A DNA stretch of 31,571 bases from a virus: positions 1 to 31,571 of IMG/VR virus record IMGVR_UViG_3300025132_000171; one strand, given 5' to 3'. Below, one piece after another: positions 1,992 to 18,054 of the stretch (position 1 is its first letter; the number at the start of each line of letters is the position of its first letter). The position numbers were made by a program, and so were the translations under genes. Under the pieces are notes generated by a model, which was not told the origin of the DNA, ran no database searches, and saw only the letters and a list, made by a program, of their open reading frames with translations.

Positions 1992-2213
1992 CTATTGGCC
2001 TAGCAAAGTTTTCTTTGTGGTGGGCGCTTCAGTCGTGAGACCCATTCCACCCGTCACACGCGCGGCCTGAGTGCCACGACGACGGGCTGCCCGTTTTTGC
2101 ACTCTCTCCGGTTCTTTCGTGTCCTTGGGCTTTATGGGTGGGTCTGGAGGAATCGGAGGCGGCGGAGGTGGCGGAGGGGGGCTGGGAACGCTGGGACTAA
2201 GGAAACCCATCAA
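1992..2213 (-). CDS. Small proline-rich protein between terminase and portal
   Basis: A 73-residue protein whose ATG overlaps the large terminase stop (ATGA). Residues about 12-20 are nine consecutive prolines followed by IPPDPP. The C-terminal half is basic (KRAARRRG) and ends with a T-G-G-M-G-L ... K-K-T-L-L-G pattern. I have seen that ending on small proteins beside podophage portal genes, whose function is unknown to me. The codons in the proline run are mixed (CCC, CCT, CCG, CCA), so this is coding sequence rather than simple repeat noise. Nine prolines should need EF-P for efficient translation. The second ATG, one codon later, could also be the start. Confidence 0.65.
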   Translation of the reverse strand: MMGFLSPSVPSPPPPPPPPPIPPDPPIKPKDTKEPERVQKRAARRRGTQAARVTGGMGLTTEAPTTKKTLLGQ

Positions 2214-3514
2214 ACTGCTCCTTGATGCTCAAACGGGTTGTAATTCATCTCGGCAACCCGTTGCGGGGGTCTGCCGTCGAAAGTGGTCATGCGCTCCATG
2301 CCAACGCTTAGGTATCGAAAGCTATCGGCGGCATGTGATGCCCAATCGTGGACGGGCTGGTCTCTGAATTTGCGGGTGCGCTCGTTATAGGCGCGGTGAT
2401 AATGGCGCAGGGCTTCGAGCCCCTTGCGAGTGTTGTCTCGGTCAAACCAGCAACGCGGGATCGTCATACGCGCGGCATGTATGCCGTCCTCGACCGGCAA
2501 CCGTGGCACAACCCGAAAATTTAAGCCCAGGCTATACGCTGCCTCGCGGCGGCTTTTGCCGGTGCCTAGCTCTTTGACCTCCAAGTCATGCGGGCCGTAG
2601 TGGTTGCCGTAGGTGTAACCCTTGCTGTTTAGCTCCGCGATGTAATGCGGCAGCCCTTCGCCACGGTTCTCATAATAATCGATCACATGGATTTGGCCGC
2701 GCCCAATGTTTTGGGTCATCCAAATGCTCGTATAGTCGTGCATGCCGATGTCCCACCACGTATCAACCTTGATTTGTGGTTGGTGCGGCACGCTGGTTAT
2801 GCGCCCCTTGTCGTCAGCGTCTTGTAACTCTTTGCCAAAAATGGCGCCCGGTACGTTCGCAACCCAACTGCACTCAAACTCTTGATTGTACTGGTCGTCG
2901 GTCATGGTCGCCTTGGCGGCCGCCAGTTCCTCCTCATCCAGCAAGTGGGTTTCGCTGGCTTTGTACATCTTGCGCGCCCACCCTTTGGTGCTGGCCGCCG
3001 TCTCCCATAGATCGTGAAAGTAATTATGGCCGTGGGGCGTGCCTAGAAATGCACAACTGCCTTTGCGCTCCGCCATAGCGGGCCGCAAAATCTCAGGAAA
3101 CAAACTCTCGGGGCAGTCCGCCGTCTCATCGATGACCGCCATGTCCAAATAAATGCCCCTGAGACTTGAGGGGTTCTCCGATCCCAGCAAGGAGATGCGT
3201 GCGCCGTTTGCCAAGTCGCAGCGCAGTTCTGTCTCGTGGTACTTGGTGCCAGGGATGCGCTCGCTGAATTGCTTCAGATAATCCCAAGCCACGTTTTTGG
3301 CTTGCCGGTACGTGGGTGCCACGTATGCCAAGCGCGGGTTTGGTTTCTTTTCCTCAATCGCGCGTTTTAATAGATGGTTTATGGCGCAAACAGTTTTGCC
3401 AAAACGTCGGTGCATTACCAAAACACAAAAGCGATTTGCATCGAGTAGCTTGTGAACCTCGCGCTGTAACGGGCGCGGGGTGTAACCGATGTCGATCTCG
3501 TTCTTTTTTGCCAT
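2210..3514 (-). CDS. terL: Terminase large subunit
   Basis: A 434-residue packaging motor and nuclease. The ATPase part shows Walker A HRRFGKT (residues 35-41), Walker B LDMAVIDE (123-130) and the coupling motif GTP (158-160). The RNase H-like nuclease part shows the expected acidic residues: D255 in WWDIG, D310 in GPHD and D397 in HAADSFRY. It cuts concatemeric DNA and drives it through the portal. It follows the 53-aa gene with a TAATG overlap and is followed by an ATGA overlap, so it sits inside a tightly coupled packaging operon. Length and motif spacing are normal for podophage terminases. Confidence 0.96.
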   Translation of the reverse strand: MAKKNEIDIGYTPRPLQREVHKLLDANRFCVLVMHRRFGKTVCAINHLLKRAIEEKKPNPRLAYVAPTYRQAKNVAWDYLKQFSERIPGTKYHETELRCDLANGARISLLGSENPSSLRGIYLDMAVIDETADCPESLFPEILRPAMAERKGSCAFLGTPHGHNYFHDLWETAASTKGWARKMYKASETHLLDEEELAAAKATMTDDQYNQEFECSWVANVPGAIFGKELQDADDKGRITSVPHQPQIKVDTWWDIGMHDYTSIWMTQNIGRGQIHVIDYYENRGEGLPHYIAELNSKGYTYGNHYGPHDLEVKELGTGKSRREAAYSLGLNFRVVPRLPVEDGIHAARMTIPRCWFDRDNTRKGLEALRHYHRAYNERTRKFRDQPVHDWASHAADSFRYLSVGMERMTTFDGRPPQRVAEMNYNPFEHQGAV

Positions 3515-3675
3515 TAGTGTATGGTTTCGCTTGGCGCGATATAGTGCGGGCTTTCCATAGGCGCCATCAGGAGTCTCAAGAAAAACTCGGCGTCCTCTGC
3601 GTCCTCAAACCCATCAAAAAACAATGCAAGGCGCACCGTGCCATCAGGCGCGTTTACGCAATAAGCGCTATACAT
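3514..3675 (-). CDS. Small acidic protein (53 aa) in front of the large terminase
   Basis: A 53-codon frame reading M-Y-S-A-Y-C-V-N-A-P-D-G and then an acidic run (F-E-D-A-E-D-A-E), ending S-E-T-I-H. Its ATG overlaps the stop of the gene before it (ATGA). Its TAA overlaps the ATG of the large terminase (TAATG). Two exact junctions of the kind used by every neighbour make this a real gene filling what would otherwise be a 160-bp hole. I recognise no domain. It is acidic, in contrast to the very basic proteins encoded just before it, so an interaction with them is conceivable but is only a guess. Confidence 0.7.
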   Translation of the reverse strand: MYSAYCVNAPDGTVRLALFFDGFEDAEDAEFFLRLLMAPMESPHYIAPSETIH

Positions 3676-3908
3676 CAGCGGAACCGCCGGGTTCTTCTCA
3701 TAATGCTTTTGGGTTGCTGGCTGAATTGCTTGCCAGCGGCTTTGTCCTTACGCTTCTTCGCGGTTGTGGCGGCATACTGTGCGGGGCTCAGGCTTTTAAT
3801 GGCGGCCTCGGGCAAGTAACGCTCGCCGGTCTCGCTGCTTTTCTTGCCGCTTTTGGTGCGCCACTTTTGGTCGCTCCAGTTTTTGAGGCTGCGTTGCGAG
3901 GATTTCAT
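3675..3908 (-). CDS. Very basic conserved small protein (77 aa), DUF5872-like
   Basis: Seventy-seven residues, strongly basic, with the pattern K-N-W-S-D-Q-K-W-R-T-K-S-G-K, then GERYLPEAAI, then Q-Y-A-A-T-T-A-K-K-R and K-Q-F-S-Q-Q-P-K. This resembles a small-protein family (DUF5872, from memory) that recurs in marine phages and bacteria and has no known function. The ATG at 3908 overlaps the preceding stop (TAATG) and the stop overlaps the next ATG (ATGA). The family's conservation and charge suggest nucleic acid binding or packaging with DNA, but nothing here proves it. Confidence 0.7.
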   Translation of the reverse strand: MKSSQRSLKNWSDQKWRTKSGKKSSETGERYLPEAAIKSLSPAQYAATTAKKRKDKAAGKQFSQQPKSIMRRTRRFR

Positions 3909-4090
3909 TAGTTGCGATACCCTCCGCCGCGCGACTTGTATTCTTTAGCCAGCAATTGCGCCTTGCGTGCCGACCATTGGCCAGCGGCGGTGCCTTGTAC
4001 GTTGCGGCCCATGATGCTCTTAAACAGGCGCTTGCGCATGCCGGGCTGGGTGTAGTTCCCGGCTTTGTTTACGCTACTTTTTTTTGCCAT
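3908..4090 (-). CDS. Very basic conserved small protein (60 aa)
   Basis: Sixty residues: a Lys-rich start, then N-K-A-G-N-Y-T-Q-P-G-M-R-K-R-L-F, then Q-W-S-A-R-K-A-Q-L-L-A-K-E-Y-K and a Gly-rich end. I recognise this pattern from small unnamed proteins in marine phages, often next to the family encoded at 3675-3908. The function is unknown. The start lies inside the end of the 28-codon frame at 4074-4160 and the stop overlaps the next ATG (TAATG). The first codons contain a run of eight A, where polymerase or ribosome slippage is possible. Confidence 0.7.
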   Translation of the reverse strand: MAKKSSVNKAGNYTQPGMRKRLFKSIMGRNVQGTAAGQWSARKAQLLAKEYKSRGGGYRN

Positions 4091-4160: not shown

Positions 4161-4345
4161 CAGATTGACATCTTTCGGCGGCGCAAAGCCTTAATGAATT
4201 TTTGACCGTCATCTGACATCATAAACTCACTCGGGCGCACGACGCTGCTTGGGTCGCTTTCTTTCATAAAGCGTTTCATTAACGACATCTCAGATTTCGT
4301 GATGTCTGTAATTTTTTTGGCGCCTTTGCCTTTGGTTTCAGGCAT
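4160..4345 (-). CDS. Small basic protein (61 aa), function unknown
   Basis: Sixty-one residues with a Lys-rich N-terminus and a C-terminal R-R-R-K patch. The middle is a likely helix (S-E-M-S-L-M-K-R-F-M-K-E) followed by F-M-M-S-D-D-G-Q-K-F-I-K-A-L. The start overlaps the preceding stop (TAATG) and the stop overlaps the next candidate start (ATGA). I do not recognise a family. It belongs by position and composition to the run of small basic proteins between the small and large terminase genes. Confidence 0.6.
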   Translation of the reverse strand: MPETKGKGAKKITDITKSEMSLMKRFMKESDPSSVVRPSEFMMSDDGQKFIKALRRRKMSI

Positions 4346-4644
4346 TACGATTTATTCCTCTTGCTTATGGCGGCGGCCTTGCGTTTTGCATCCGCCTTTG
4401 AACTCGCGCCCCACGCCTTGAGAGAGAGCAACAAGCGCGTGGGGCGCCCCTTTTCGTCGCGCTCAGGGCCACGCATGTTGCCCATGCGCGCCAAAAAGGA
4501 TGCACGGCGCGGGTTGTCGCCGCTTTTAACGGGGCGCTTTAGATCGCTGCCGGGGTTGGCGCGCTCGTATGAGCGGCGGCCCTTTTCGTTGAGGCCGCCT
4601 TTTTTGTTTTTGCCCGCTTTGCGGGTCCATGCAGGGCTGGCCAT
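4345..4644 (-). CDS. DUF6321-like basic protein (99 aa)
   Basis: Pattern A-W-T-R-K-A-G-K-N-K-K-G-G-L-N near the start, then F-L-A-R-M-G-N-M-R-G and G-R-P-T-R-L-L-L-S-L-K-A-W-G. This fits the DUF6321 family as I remember it, a Lys/Arg-rich protein of phages and bacteria with no known function. A longer frame exists upstream. The ATG at 4644 is chosen because AGGAG sits 6-7 bases before it and the family begins close to the A-W-T-R-K motif. It is the first gene of the small-protein run and follows a 320-bp non-coding region, so a promoter is likely there. Confidence 0.75.
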   Translation of the reverse strand: MASPAWTRKAGKNKKGGLNEKGRRSYERANPGSDLKRPVKSGDNPRRASFLARMGNMRGPERDEKGRPTRLLLSLKAWGASSKADAKRKAAAISKRNKS

Positions 4645-4788
4645 GCTTTCTCCTGTGCACAAAGGGGCTTAGGCAGAGGGCAACGGTGCCACTGTCGGCA
4701 ACGTATTATGCCGCTGGCAGCGGCGCCCCGGTCTGGCGGGGGGTGGGGGGCCGCCGTCAGAAAATGGACACCCCCTCCCTAGGTCAGC

Positions 4789-4850
4789 AACCTGAAGGTC
4801 AACCCAATGTTATCAATGGCTTAGCTCCTAAGTGGAGCAAGGGTGGAGCA
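4789..4850. repeat. Attachment-region-like motif cluster (13-mer plus two phased heptamers)
   Basis: AACCTGAAGGTCAA at 4789-4802 is identical over 14 bases to 17727-17740. It is followed by TGGAGCA at 4833-4839 and 4844-4850, which is TGCTCCA on the other strand. The two heptamers are 11 bp apart, the same phase as the pairs at 17458/17469 and 17699/17710. So the elements flanking the tRNA-derived core at 17.5 kb recur here without a core. They may be binding sites of the integrase or an accessory protein, or an old att-derived duplication. Confidence 0.6.
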
Positions 4851-4882
4851 TTACCGATCCCGCCCAGCTTTGGGGGGTCGCA

Positions 4883-4928
4883 AATAAGTCAGCATTGCTG
4901 CCATGAATAGGTCAGCATTACTGCCATA
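4883..4928. repeat. Tandem 23-bp direct repeat
   Basis: Two head-to-tail copies, 4883-4905 and 4906-4928, match at 20 of 23 positions. The shared core is GTCAGCATT followed by CTGCCAT. A shorter related element (GGTCAGCA) occurs near 4782. The repeat lies 37 bp from the 3' end of the small terminase gene. Repeated sites near that gene are typical of places where the small subunit binds to start packaging, but an origin or operator role is also possible. Confidence 0.7.
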
Positions 4929-4964
4929 TTTCGCGCGTGCTGCTATGCCTCACAAGATGTGGCG

Positions 4965-5435
4965 TCAACGTGTTGTTTCGGGATCGTTGTCCGTTACGAG
5001 CTTAACCACTTCGCCCTTGGGCTTTTCCTCAACCGGCTCTTCGTCCGCACCCCACATCAACACTACGTTACCGCCAGTATCCACGTCCTCTTTCTTGTGG
5101 CGAACGCCACGCGGTTGCATGCGGGCAAACGTCCACTTGAGCGTATCAACCTCGAGCCGCCTACGCTGCACCTCAGCGTTGGCAAACTTGTTGTCCATGT
5201 TCTCAGGCAACGGTTGCCTGGCTAAATCGTGCATCTCGTCGGCAAGCACCTCAGCCCCAATGGCCCTTGCCCGCGAATACATTTCAAAAAGCTCTTCATC
5301 ACGCTGCACCGCTTGCAGCACCGTAACCCAATGCGGCATCTTTGCATCGCCATCACAAATTGACCGCAACGACTTGCCCGTGGCCAACGCATCACAGATT
5401 GGCCGCATCTTTGCTTTGCTAAGTTTTCCCGGCAT
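4965..5435 (-). CDS. terS: Terminase small subunit (Sf6 gp1-like)
   Basis: A 156-residue protein. The N-terminus (about 1-50) has the small-terminase pattern I-C-D-A-L-A-T-G-K-S-L-R-S-I-C followed by M-P-H-W-V-T-V-L, a helix-turn-helix that recognises the packaging site. The helix after it (F-E-M-Y-S-R-A-R) is typical of Sf6 gp1-like proteins, and the middle is a likely oligomerisation region. A GTG at 5441 would add two residues; the ATG at 5435 matches where the family begins. Neither has a clear Shine-Dalgarno sequence: the seven-T tract of a terminator ends at the GTG. The acidic C-terminal 40 residues probably contact the large subunit. Confidence 0.85.
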   Translation of the reverse strand: MPGKLSKAKMRPICDALATGKSLRSICDGDAKMPHWVTVLQAVQRDEELFEMYSRARAIGAEVLADEMHDLARQPLPENMDNKFANAEVQRRRLEVDTLKWTFARMQPRGVRHKKEDVDTGGNVVLMWGADEEPVEEKPKGEVVKLVTDNDPETTR

Positions 5436-5441
5436 GCCCAC

Positions 5442-14913: not shown

Positions 14914-15122
14914 GCCGCAAAAACACCTCAACCGTAAAAGTCAAAACGCAGTTCGGCTCGTTTTTTGTTCATGTGGAAAGCAATGACGCACTCAATGGCG
15001 CAAGCGGCGTTTGGATATCAAAACAACAAAAACTTGAAGACTCAGAGATTGATAAATTAGTCAATCAAATTATTGAGGGCGTACATGAGGGCATCGATGC
15101 GCTAAGCGTCGATCAATCCTAA
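14910..15122 (+). CDS. Unknown small protein (70 aa), last gene of the plus-strand operon
   Basis: Seventy residues with K-T-Q-F-G-S-F-F-V-H-V-E near the start, then G-V-W-I-S-K-Q-Q-K-L-E-D-S-E-I, a beta-then-helix pattern. I recall similar short phage proteins of unknown role. The ATG overlaps the methylase stop (ATGA), so the 84-base upstream extension is not used. Its stop codon overlaps the integrase stop on the opposite strand. Confidence 0.65.
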   Translation: MSRKNTSTVKVKTQFGSFFVHVESNDALNGASGVWISKQQKLEDSEIDKLVNQIIEGVHEGIDALSVDQS

Positions 15123-16297
15123 GCGGTCAAAACATTTTGCAATCGTGATCCCATGCCGGTCGTCGGGCGTATATCATCTAGCCAATGCCCGTACTGTTTG
15201 CGGGTGAACGCAGCGTCCTTATGGCCCATAGCCGCCGACACAGTGACCTCGCTTTCCTTTAAATCGTAGATCAAAAGCGAGGCAAAAAAATGCCGCATGT
15301 CGTGCCACCGGATGCGGGCAACGCCAGCCCGGTCGCAGGCTGGGTGTAAAATGCGATTGCGCCATGCGCTGTTATCCACTTGCACATGACCCGCGCCCGT
15401 AGGGAAAACCAAATTGCAGCCGCGCTGCGCTAGGGGTTGCATCTCACGCCACTCAGCTAAGCCGCCCGCTATCTCTTCCGTAAGCTCGAGGCGCCGCATG
15501 CCCGCCTTGGTTTTTGGCAGGCCAATTGTGCCGCCGGTTTTGCGCGCCTGCCTTATGCTTATGACACGGTCGTGGAGGTCTACGTGATCCCATGTCAGTG
15601 CCGCCTGCTCACCCGCGCGCATGCCCGTGTAGGCCGCCGTTGAGACAAGCAAGTGCGCCCAGCTATTGTCGTTGCGGCCCGGCGTCTGCACGTTTTCCAA
15701 AATCTTTGTAATGATGCGCTTGCTAATGCGCTCACCGATGGGATCGACCGCCTCGTCCTCGTCGGGCAAGGGTAGCTCAATGCCGGTCTTGCCGTTGGCT
15801 GGATTGATCATCAAGGGGTCGTGCGCCAAGTAACCATTCACAAGCGCATACTTAATAACCTGTCCAAACACCGCGTATATGTTGCGGTTGGTTTTGTTCG
15901 CGCGCTTCGCAAACAAAGCTGGCACAAGCGTGTTTTGCACGGCACCCATGCGTATGTCCGCCATCTTGGTTTTAGCAAGCGACACACCGTTGTCATGCGG
16001 TACTGCGTTGAGGTGCTTGATCGCGGTTATCTTGTTTGCGATCTCGCCCTCACCCAAGCGCCGCCCTTGCAGGCGCACGGTGCGCTGATGCTCAATAAAC
16101 TCGTCGGCAACCTTGGCAAAGGTTGGCGTGGCGCTGCGCACTAAATATGAGCCGGTGATGCGATGCTCTTCAGCGGCGGCGGTGTGGCAAGCCTCGGCCT
16201 CGGCCTTGGTGGCAAAACGTACTGTCTTGCCACCAAAGCGCCGTAAATCGGCAACCCAGCCTTTGCGGTTTTTTTCGGTGTCGGGGCGAACGCTCAT
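15119..16297 (-). CDS. int: Tyrosine-recombinase integrase
   Basis: A 392-residue phage integrase. The catalytic set is visible: R227 (GMRAGE), a probable Lys near 264, H332-x-x-R335 (WHDMRH), H359 (MGHKD) and nucleophile Y369 (KQYGHW). Residues 1-55 form an arm-binding-type domain and about 57-160 a core-binding domain. It probably inserts the phage into an initiator tRNA-Met gene, from the tRNA-derived core at 17524-17571. It is the last gene of a five-gene operon read from the promoter at 17377-17405; its ATG overlaps the preceding stop. Its own stop overlaps the 70-aa gene coming the other way. Confidence 0.95.
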   Translation of the reverse strand: MSVRPDTEKNRKGWVADLRRFGGKTVRFATKAEAEACHTAAAEEHRITGSYLVRSATPTFAKVADEFIEHQRTVRLQGRRLGEGEIANKITAIKHLNAVPHDNGVSLAKTKMADIRMGAVQNTLVPALFAKRANKTNRNIYAVFGQVIKYALVNGYLAHDPLMINPANGKTGIELPLPDEDEAVDPIGERISKRIITKILENVQTPGRNDNSWAHLLVSTAAYTGMRAGEQAALTWDHVDLHDRVISIRQARKTGGTIGLPKTKAGMRRLELTEEIAGGLAEWREMQPLAQRGCNLVFPTGAGHVQVDNSAWRNRILHPACDRAGVARIRWHDMRHFFASLLIYDLKESEVTVSAAMGHKDAAFTRKQYGHWLDDIRPTTGMGSRLQNVLTA

Positions 16298-17405: not shown

Positions 17406-17481
17406 CATAAAAGTGACCTTCAGGTTATTTTGCTCCAAATTGAATTTTGAGGCTGAATGCTCCACACATGCTCCAACCAAC

Positions 17482-17515
17482 AAAAAAAGGCCTAGCCGGT
17501 TAGAGCTAAGCCTTT
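17482..17515 (-). terminator. Terminator of the late operon
   Basis: On the minus strand AAAGGCTTAGC, 8-base loop, GCTAGGCCTTT (11 bp, one G-T pair), followed by more T (seven in a row overall). It follows the last lysis gene by 220 bp and lies inside the left half of the attachment region, ending leftward transcription before the integrase operon. Confidence 0.8.
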
Positions 17516-17523
17516 GATTTCAT

Positions 17524-17571
17524 TGGTTGCGGGGAGAGGATTTGAACCTCTGACCTTCAGGTTATGAGCCT
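17524..17571 (-). other. Attachment core: 3' half of an initiator tRNA-Met gene
   Basis: On the minus strand it begins AGGCTCATAACCTGAAGGTC (CAT anticodon in its loop), continues with a T arm (AGAGG/CCTCT around TTCAAAT) and ends CCCCGCAACCA. It matches the initiator tRNA pattern from the anticodon arm to the CCA end. No 5' acceptor strand (GCGGGG) lies upstream, so it is not a working tRNA. It would rebuild the host gene on insertion. ATGAGCC and GGCTCAT around the left boundary form an inverted repeat, suitable as core sites. Confidence 0.8.
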
Positions 17572-17736
17572 AAACAACGGGCTCATGCTCCACCAATAAA
17601 AACAAAGGCTTATGGCCTATGCCCCTAAAAATACACAATTATTGGCGGGAGTAAAGGGGACCGTGTGGGACTAGATGAGATAAGAGGGGAAAGCTAAATG
17701 CTCCAAATTTGCTCCAAACCAAGCACAACCTGAAGG

Positions 17737-18054
17737 TCAATCTTTGGCCGCGCGTATCTTATCGCGCAACGTGCCGTAATCCATAATGAGACGAGCCGCC
17801 GCTGAGCAATCAGCGACTATTGTGTCGCGGGCGCACGGCGGACCTAACTGCTCAAACTCGTCAGCCGCCCGCGCCATAATTTCTGGCGCGTACTCCGTGA
17901 GCGGCGGCGTGACGATCACTGCCTCGCCCTTCTCGCTTGTGAGGTAATCAAAATATGCGCCAGTAACTGACGCGGCTGCACCAACGCTACTACCAATTGC
18001 TGTTACGCAACCGCTCAGCGGTATAACGAGGAGGCTTATCATCGCGAACAGCAT
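17737..18054 (-). CDS. Lipoprotein, candidate outer-membrane spanin (Rz1-like)
   Basis: From the ATG at 18054 the protein has 105 residues and opens with a hydrophobic segment ending L-L-V-I-P-L-S-G-C, a lipobox. The rest is soluble. It lies in another frame and starts inside the small membrane-protein gene at 17990-18184, as Rz1 does inside Rz. The chosen signal has no positive residue before it. A GTG at 18180 in the same frame would add a long basic stretch (K-P-W-K-K-R), so the start is uncertain. It would link the outer membrane to an inner-membrane partner for the last step of lysis. Confidence 0.6.
   Translation of the reverse strand: MLFAMISLLVIPLSGCVTAIGSSVGAAASVTGAYFDYLTSEKGEAVIVTPPLTEYAPEIMARAADEFEQLGPPCARDTIVADCSAAARLIMDYGTLRDKIRAAKD

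Follow-up and report, generated by a model that had tools for sequence, protein, structure and literature searches.

A candidate second integrase site of attL-like build beside the small terminase gene of temperate marine podoviruses

Phage integrases are commonly taken to act at a single phage site, attP. In phage P1, loxP lies near pac, and the action of Cre on it serves cyclisation and dimer resolution; Cre is a dedicated simple recombinase that works without arm sites. In phage lambda, cosB carries R sites together with the IHF site I1 beside the terminase genes. The attL site of lambda, when occupied by two Int bridges and IHF, is synapsis-competent (PMC4880445). Among marine phages, the HTVC010P-type pelagiphages and related podoviruses resemble the phage studied here in gene order, in their T7-like portal and in TerL (about 54% identical). 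However, no integrase is listed in the HTVC010P and HTVC035P records, whereas the present group is temperate with a tRNA attP. HTVC010P-type isolates have been reported with direct terminal repeats that reach or include TerL (PMC10504331), which is only suggestive for the present group. HTVC019P, an integrase-bearing autographivirus, showed no element of the kind described below near its genome ends, and DNA and TerS searches of phage databases returned no close isolate. No published precedent for such a site was found in the literature, as judged on open-access papers and few subscription or older phage works.

The DNA analysed, called the window in the following, is a podovirus record in IMG/VR of 31,571 bases (IMGVR_UViG_3300025132_000171). 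It encodes a T7-like portal and the genes listed here:

2210-3514, minus strand, terminase large subunit (TerL; PHROG 2, 2.2e-34)
4345-4662, minus strand, DUF6321 protein, the next gene past the terminase-side site (PF19846, 6.4e-24)
4965-5441, minus strand, terminase small subunit (TerS), Sf6-like (PHROG 1482, 6e-29; PF20901, 1.7e-26)
15119-16297, minus strand, tyrosine integrase (PHROG 1, 1.1e-49; PF00589, 4.6e-14)

The first-pass annotation had reported a 14-base copy of the right outer repeat of the attachment region at the small terminase gene, next to two TGCTCCA heptamers with 11-bp spacing, and it had suggested an exact search for the shared 13-mer. This search was run with TGACCTTCAGGTT and returned four exact copies in the 31,571-base record, at 4789-4801(-), 17414-17426(+), 17551-17563(+) and 17727-17739(-); no further copies appeared when two mismatches were allowed. 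In shuffles, the mean number of matches with up to two mismatches was 0.48, and four were reached in 0 of 100. The 14 bases at 4789-4802 are identical to 17727-17740, and mismatch-free TGCTCCA pairs 11 bp apart occur in the window only at 4833/4844(-), 17458/17469(+) and 17699/17710(+), so that both reported elements were placed correctly. The sole copy of the 13-mer or of the 11-bp pair outside attP is the one at 4789-4850. A chance repeat could appeal to the heptamer, which is common by itself (10 copies in the window against 4.5 expected), but this explanation is contradicted by the shuffles, by the swap tests and by the relatives described below, and is regarded as extremely improbable.

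The attachment region is made up as follows:

17414-17739, attP, a tRNA-derived core between outer repeats and arm pairs
17414-17426, plus strand, left outer copy of the 13-mer, exact match
17458-17475, plus strand, left arm pair (TGCTCCA pair), 93 bp from the core half-site
17507-17519, plus strand, IHF-consensus element TAAGCCTTTGATT, 44 bp before the core half-site
17528-17568, plus strand, identity region, complement of the 3' half of tRNA-Met(CAT)
17551-17561, plus strand, core half-site, with the overlap TTATGAG at 17562-17568
17699-17716, plus strand, right arm pair (TGCTCCA pair)
17727-17739, minus strand, right outer copy of the 13-mer, exact match

All 41 bases of the identity region were found without mismatch in more than 100 bacterial contigs, most of them from Alphaproteobacteria, and the match sat in a tRNA-Met(CAT) gene in all five loci checked. 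It had escaped the first-pass annotation that the 13-mer at 17551 falls inside a partial tRNA-Met(CAT), the core of attP; this copy corresponds to the anticodon-stem and variable-loop part of the tRNA.

On the terminase side, the following features were recognised:

4833-4850, minus strand, candidate integrase arm-type pair, TGCTCCA-N4-TGCTCCA with an 11-bp period, the same heptamer pair as in attP at 17458 and 17699
4811-4823, minus strand, IHF-consensus element TAAGCCATTGATA (complement TATCAATGGCTTA), fitting WATCAANNNNTTR; a consensus match only
4773-4801, minus strand, core-like site, called from an inverted repeat with a 7-bp spacer and from half-site co-variation with the phage's own attP
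4791-4801, minus strand, core half-site TGACCTTCAGG of the core-like site
4784-4790, minus strand, 7-bp overlap TTGCTGA of the core-like site
4773-4783, minus strand, imperfect inverted half-site CCTAGG... of the core-like site
4730-4772, minus strand, conserved block adjoining the unit, ...ATTTTCTGACGGCGGCCCCCCACCCCCCGCCAGACC, downstream of TerS in most relatives; candidate packaging-site element

Read on the minus strand from 4850 to 4773, the site is TGCTCCACCCTTGCTCCA / 9 bp / TAAGCCATTGATA / 9 bp / TGACCTTCAGG TTGCTGA CCTAGG, and the left half of attP reads TGCTCCACACATGCTCCA / 31 bp / TAAGCCTTTGATT / 31 bp / TGACCTTCAGG TTATGAG. The order of arm pair, IHF element, core half-site and 7-bp overlap is the same in both, in the same orientation. 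The first-pass annotation had missed that the 13-mer at 4789 belongs, as one of the two halves, to an imperfect inverted repeat (4773-4801) with a 7-bp spacer, and that IHF-consensus elements, alike in order and orientation, lie between the pair and the 13-mer at both places (4811-4823(-) and 17507-17519(+)). Pair and core are 49 bp apart on the terminase side and 93 bp apart in attP; the extra 44 bp are near four helical turns, and in four genomes the pair-to-core distance of attP was longer by this amount.

This anatomy is that of lambda attL with its P' arm, which likewise has a core inverted repeat with a 7-bp overlap, one IHF site and adjacent direct-repeat arm-type sites on one side only, with core and arm sites both belonging to one integrase. 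The inverted half-sites around the 7-bp overlap were found, the right one being weak in some genomes, the window included, and the IHF site between core and arms was present in the window and in many relatives and absent in several. In contrast to lambda attL, the site is resident in the phage genome by TerS and is not a phage/chromosome junction, it is more compact than the arm of its own attP, and its overlap is not identical to that of attP or attB.

Relatives were collected by TerS searches, which gave loci from dozens of related contigs, all of them metagenomic, with TerS about 60-96% identical. On the longer contigs, the TerS-side site was compared with the region upstream of the same genome's integrase. 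In many relatives the interval from TerS to the next gene held the frame GCATAGC..ACGCGCG, the unit and the C-rich block, with other letters in arms and core. The unit was found in either orientation relative to TerS, and the block equivalent to 4730-4772 stood downstream of TerS in most relatives regardless of this orientation. The arm pair lay at a fixed 30-31 bp from the core. In 14 units an inverted-repeat signal with a spacing of about 7 bp peaked at this place with 3.43 of 6, and other places gave about 1.4. The IHF element remained constant while arms and core changed, and its distances of 9 bp to the arm pair and 9 bp to the core were kept in G000, G005, G011, G016, G018, G025 and G048. 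The IHF match was missing in 6 of the 15 listed units (G013, G020, G022, G031, G032 and G034), and in G013, G022 and G031 the arm pair was present with no clear core at the usual spacing. The first-pass annotation had held that a shared binding protein would be refuted by relatives keeping one cluster and losing the other; this was not seen in the genomes with both regions readable.

At the position equivalent to 4833-4850, each relative holds the arm pair of its own attP. The heptamers are diverse among genomes (TGCTCCA, TGCAACC, CGCTACG, TTGTCAC, GTTACC, TGTTTCC, TGCGACT, TCTGCAA, TGCCACA, TGTCAGC), and the match to the cognate attP, as is expected of the arm-type sites of an attL, was found with up to two mismatches in 14 of 17 genomes. 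Among the misses, G004 and G026 agree with their attP in a single arm (TTGGCA or CTGGCA, with TTTGGCA as the attP arms), and G036 offered only 153 bp of attP-side sequence for comparison. When partners were swapped among these 17 genomes, the near-identical G002 being left out, the observed mismatch sum was 23 and the lowest of 200,000 permutations was 41 (0/200,000 as good); the genomes are related, and such permutation counts serve as a guide and not as exact probabilities. The core half-site behaved alike, with 14 observed against a lowest value of 18 in 100,000 permutations (0/100,000 as good), and 2 of 720 permutations were as good when one genome per tRNA class was used.

The co-variation of the core half-site extends to phages that target other tRNAs. 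In the tRNA-Met phages the TerS-side half-site is TGACCGTCAGG; in G032 it is TGACCCCTACG, and in G025 it is TGACAAAGCGG, identical to the outer attP repeats of that genome. G018 carries GGCAGA-N7-TCTGC on the TerS side, the stem of its own tRNA target, and its attachment region contains a complete tRNA that includes GGGCAGATTTACAGTCTGC. Sharing of the 13-mer as a mere tRNA coincidence was considered and ruled out. In G005, G011 and G016, TGACCGTCAGG stands both on the TerS side (CGACCGTCAGG in G016) and in the outer copies of attP, and the tRNA reads GACCTTCAGG; since the outer repeats carry the TerS-side form, the likeness is not simply inherited from the tRNA.

Comparison among relatives supports that the unit recurs, that it keeps its order and spacing, and that it co-varies with the own attP. 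As far as sequence can tell, the stretch at 4773-4850(-) is very probably an integrase site, and it is probable that it represents a second, compact attL-like site, bound by the phage's own integrase and host IHF and kept by selection. A shared binding protein, one of the two proposals of the first-pass annotation, is strongly supported by arm and core sequences that track the own attP across relatives. Such co-variation also offers a computational route to the arm- and core-type sites of uncultivated integrases.

Repeats and an IHF site at terminase genes are also what lambda cosB displays, and the unit could accordingly be read as a cosB-like or pac site for TerS, with the likeness to attP arising from TerS binding there or from convergence. 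TerS is adjacent and the C-rich block is conserved. However, in contrast to cosB, arms and core follow the attP specificity of each genome's integrase, the tRNA target included, so that repeats recognised by TerS independently of the integrase were not what was found. Arm similarity followed the similarity of the integrase core-binding and catalytic part (Mantel p 0.007), and no significant correlation was detected with TerS (Mantel p 0.10) or with the integrase N-terminal domain (p 0.11). A terminase site is on these grounds very unlikely.

The other proposal of the first-pass annotation was a decayed second attachment site, and a related explanation is a working attP for another chromosomal target. 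The partial attP-like anatomy and the tRNA-like core of several relatives would suit a remnant of an older attP or such an alternative site. Against decay, the arms, the IHF site and the core half-site are all intact, the spacing is rigid, and the co-evolving unit is found throughout a diverse set of phages whose specificity changes. Against another target, the unit has no tRNA 3' part able to restore a gene, and its 17-base core plus overlap, with up to one mismatch, was absent from all 19 candidate-host genomes that carry the tRNA attB (mostly Alphaproteobacteria). Judged by its sequence, the terminase-side site is neither a chance product nor visibly decayed, and a remnant or alternative attP is most doubtful.

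The overlap sets the predicted integrase site apart from attP. TTGCTGA on the terminase side is not identical to TTATGAG in attP, and the TerS-side overlap differed from the tRNA overlap in every comparable genome. It follows that exchange with attP or attB should fail, which leaves a further copy of the site as its only expected partner. The overlap differs even between 96%-identical phages (TTGCTGA and TTGCGGA), which indicates that no partner outside the phage constrains it. Though attL-like in build, the site is therefore predicted to stand outside the attP/attB exchange of the phage.

The position of the site suggests a link to packaging or late gene control. In the mechanism proposed, the phage's tyrosine integrase and host IHF would occupy 4773-4850 beside the small terminase gene, where the predicted site would supply what the complex needs: a core of two half-sites, a bend site and two arm sites. 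The simplest partner would be a second copy of the same site, either in the terminal redundancy of virion DNA or in a multimer. Recombination of the two copies would yield circles or monomers, and the integrase would in this way close the genome into a circle or resolve it, either ahead of its action at attP or following it. Integrase and IHF binding, catalysis, self-recombination and a benefit to the phage are inferred.

Circularisation or resolution of phage DNA near the packaging start by self-recombination is put forward tentatively, as a role somewhat short of probable. Equally tentative is the wider picture in which the lysogeny integrase would use attP for the chromosome and, separately, a compact self-recombining site beside terminase to circularise or monomerise the genome, both sites co-evolving with the enzyme across a large group of marine podoviruses. 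If this role holds, the likeness to loxP-Cre of P1 would lie in a tyrosine recombinase and a phage-borne site near the packaging start that joins redundant ends; the differences are that here the site belongs to a lysogeny integrase, has IHF and arm architecture, and has a function that is only predicted. Cohesive-end packaging, if used, would make circularisation by the integrase unnecessary, and late integrase-driven resolution of concatemers would hinder packaging unless controlled. The Sf6-like TerS would suit headful packaging, which is only suggestive. Contig ends revealed no common terminus near TerS and no clear sign of genome termini, and a 99-bp end overlap in G002 looks like an assembly overlap.

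A regulatory complex, in which integrase and IHF assemble without recombining and control the initiation of packaging or transcription from TerS to TerL and the structural genes, would couple the lysogeny decision to late functions. The site is flanked by TerS and DUF6321/TerL, which share one operon direction, the conserved C-rich block adjoins it, and an overlap unlike that of attP would avoid exchange with attP. Nevertheless, a full inverted-repeat core with 7-bp spacing exceeds the needs of binding, a search of 4600-5000 found no sigma-70-like promoter or terminator, and the presence of the unit in both orientations relative to TerS fits recombination better than a directional operator. 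This explanation is considered unlikely, with recombination between copies of the site preferred. In either case, a second integrase/IHF site by the packaging genes, conserved while its letters follow the integrase, points to a further task of the enzyme. If the site serves circularisation, it would explain how temperate relatives of T7-like phages whose ends are redundant and non-cohesive close their DNA ahead of integration; if it regulates packaging, it would tie the late programme directly to the lysogeny machinery.

Some minor observations were made around these sites. At 4730-4772 and at the same place in relatives, the conserved sequence ATTTTCCTG-GGCGG-CCCCCCACCCCCC is followed by TAATACGTCCACAACTGAGG; this block is a candidate packaging (cos/pac) or promoter element of the phage group, and the RNA structure of the C-rich block was nothing unusual (z -0.11). 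Just past TerS, at 4883-4927, two 22-nt direct repeats were noted (AATAAGTCAGCATTGCTGCCAT / AATAGGTCAGCATTACTGCCAT), of which the 96%-identical relatives G002 and L008 hold a single copy. In L047, L051, L053 and L055, all incomplete contigs, TerL follows TerS with little or no gap, and no terminase-side site is present there; the contigs of the L047/L051 lineage are too short to judge the integrase. A TerS profile scan of bacterial genomes detected no prophage. An apparent integrated prophage was read by eye in L083 (G018) at about 2000-4000, and the integrase-side attachment region of G018 contains a complete tRNA (anticodon-stem GGCAGATTTACAGTCTGC) with a host-like rRNA methyltransferase gene adjoining. 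In L041 (10545-10790), and also in L018, L027, L033 and L045, which represent one lineage, a small HNH-like ORF (DVDH.DGNP) is inserted between TerS and the integrase site, a placement that resembles phages with HNH-assisted packaging. The outer attP repeats (17414 and 17727, and those of relatives) are half-sites of core type whose sequence is that of the TerS-side half-site and not that of the tRNA copy; they may be extra Int or Xis sites.
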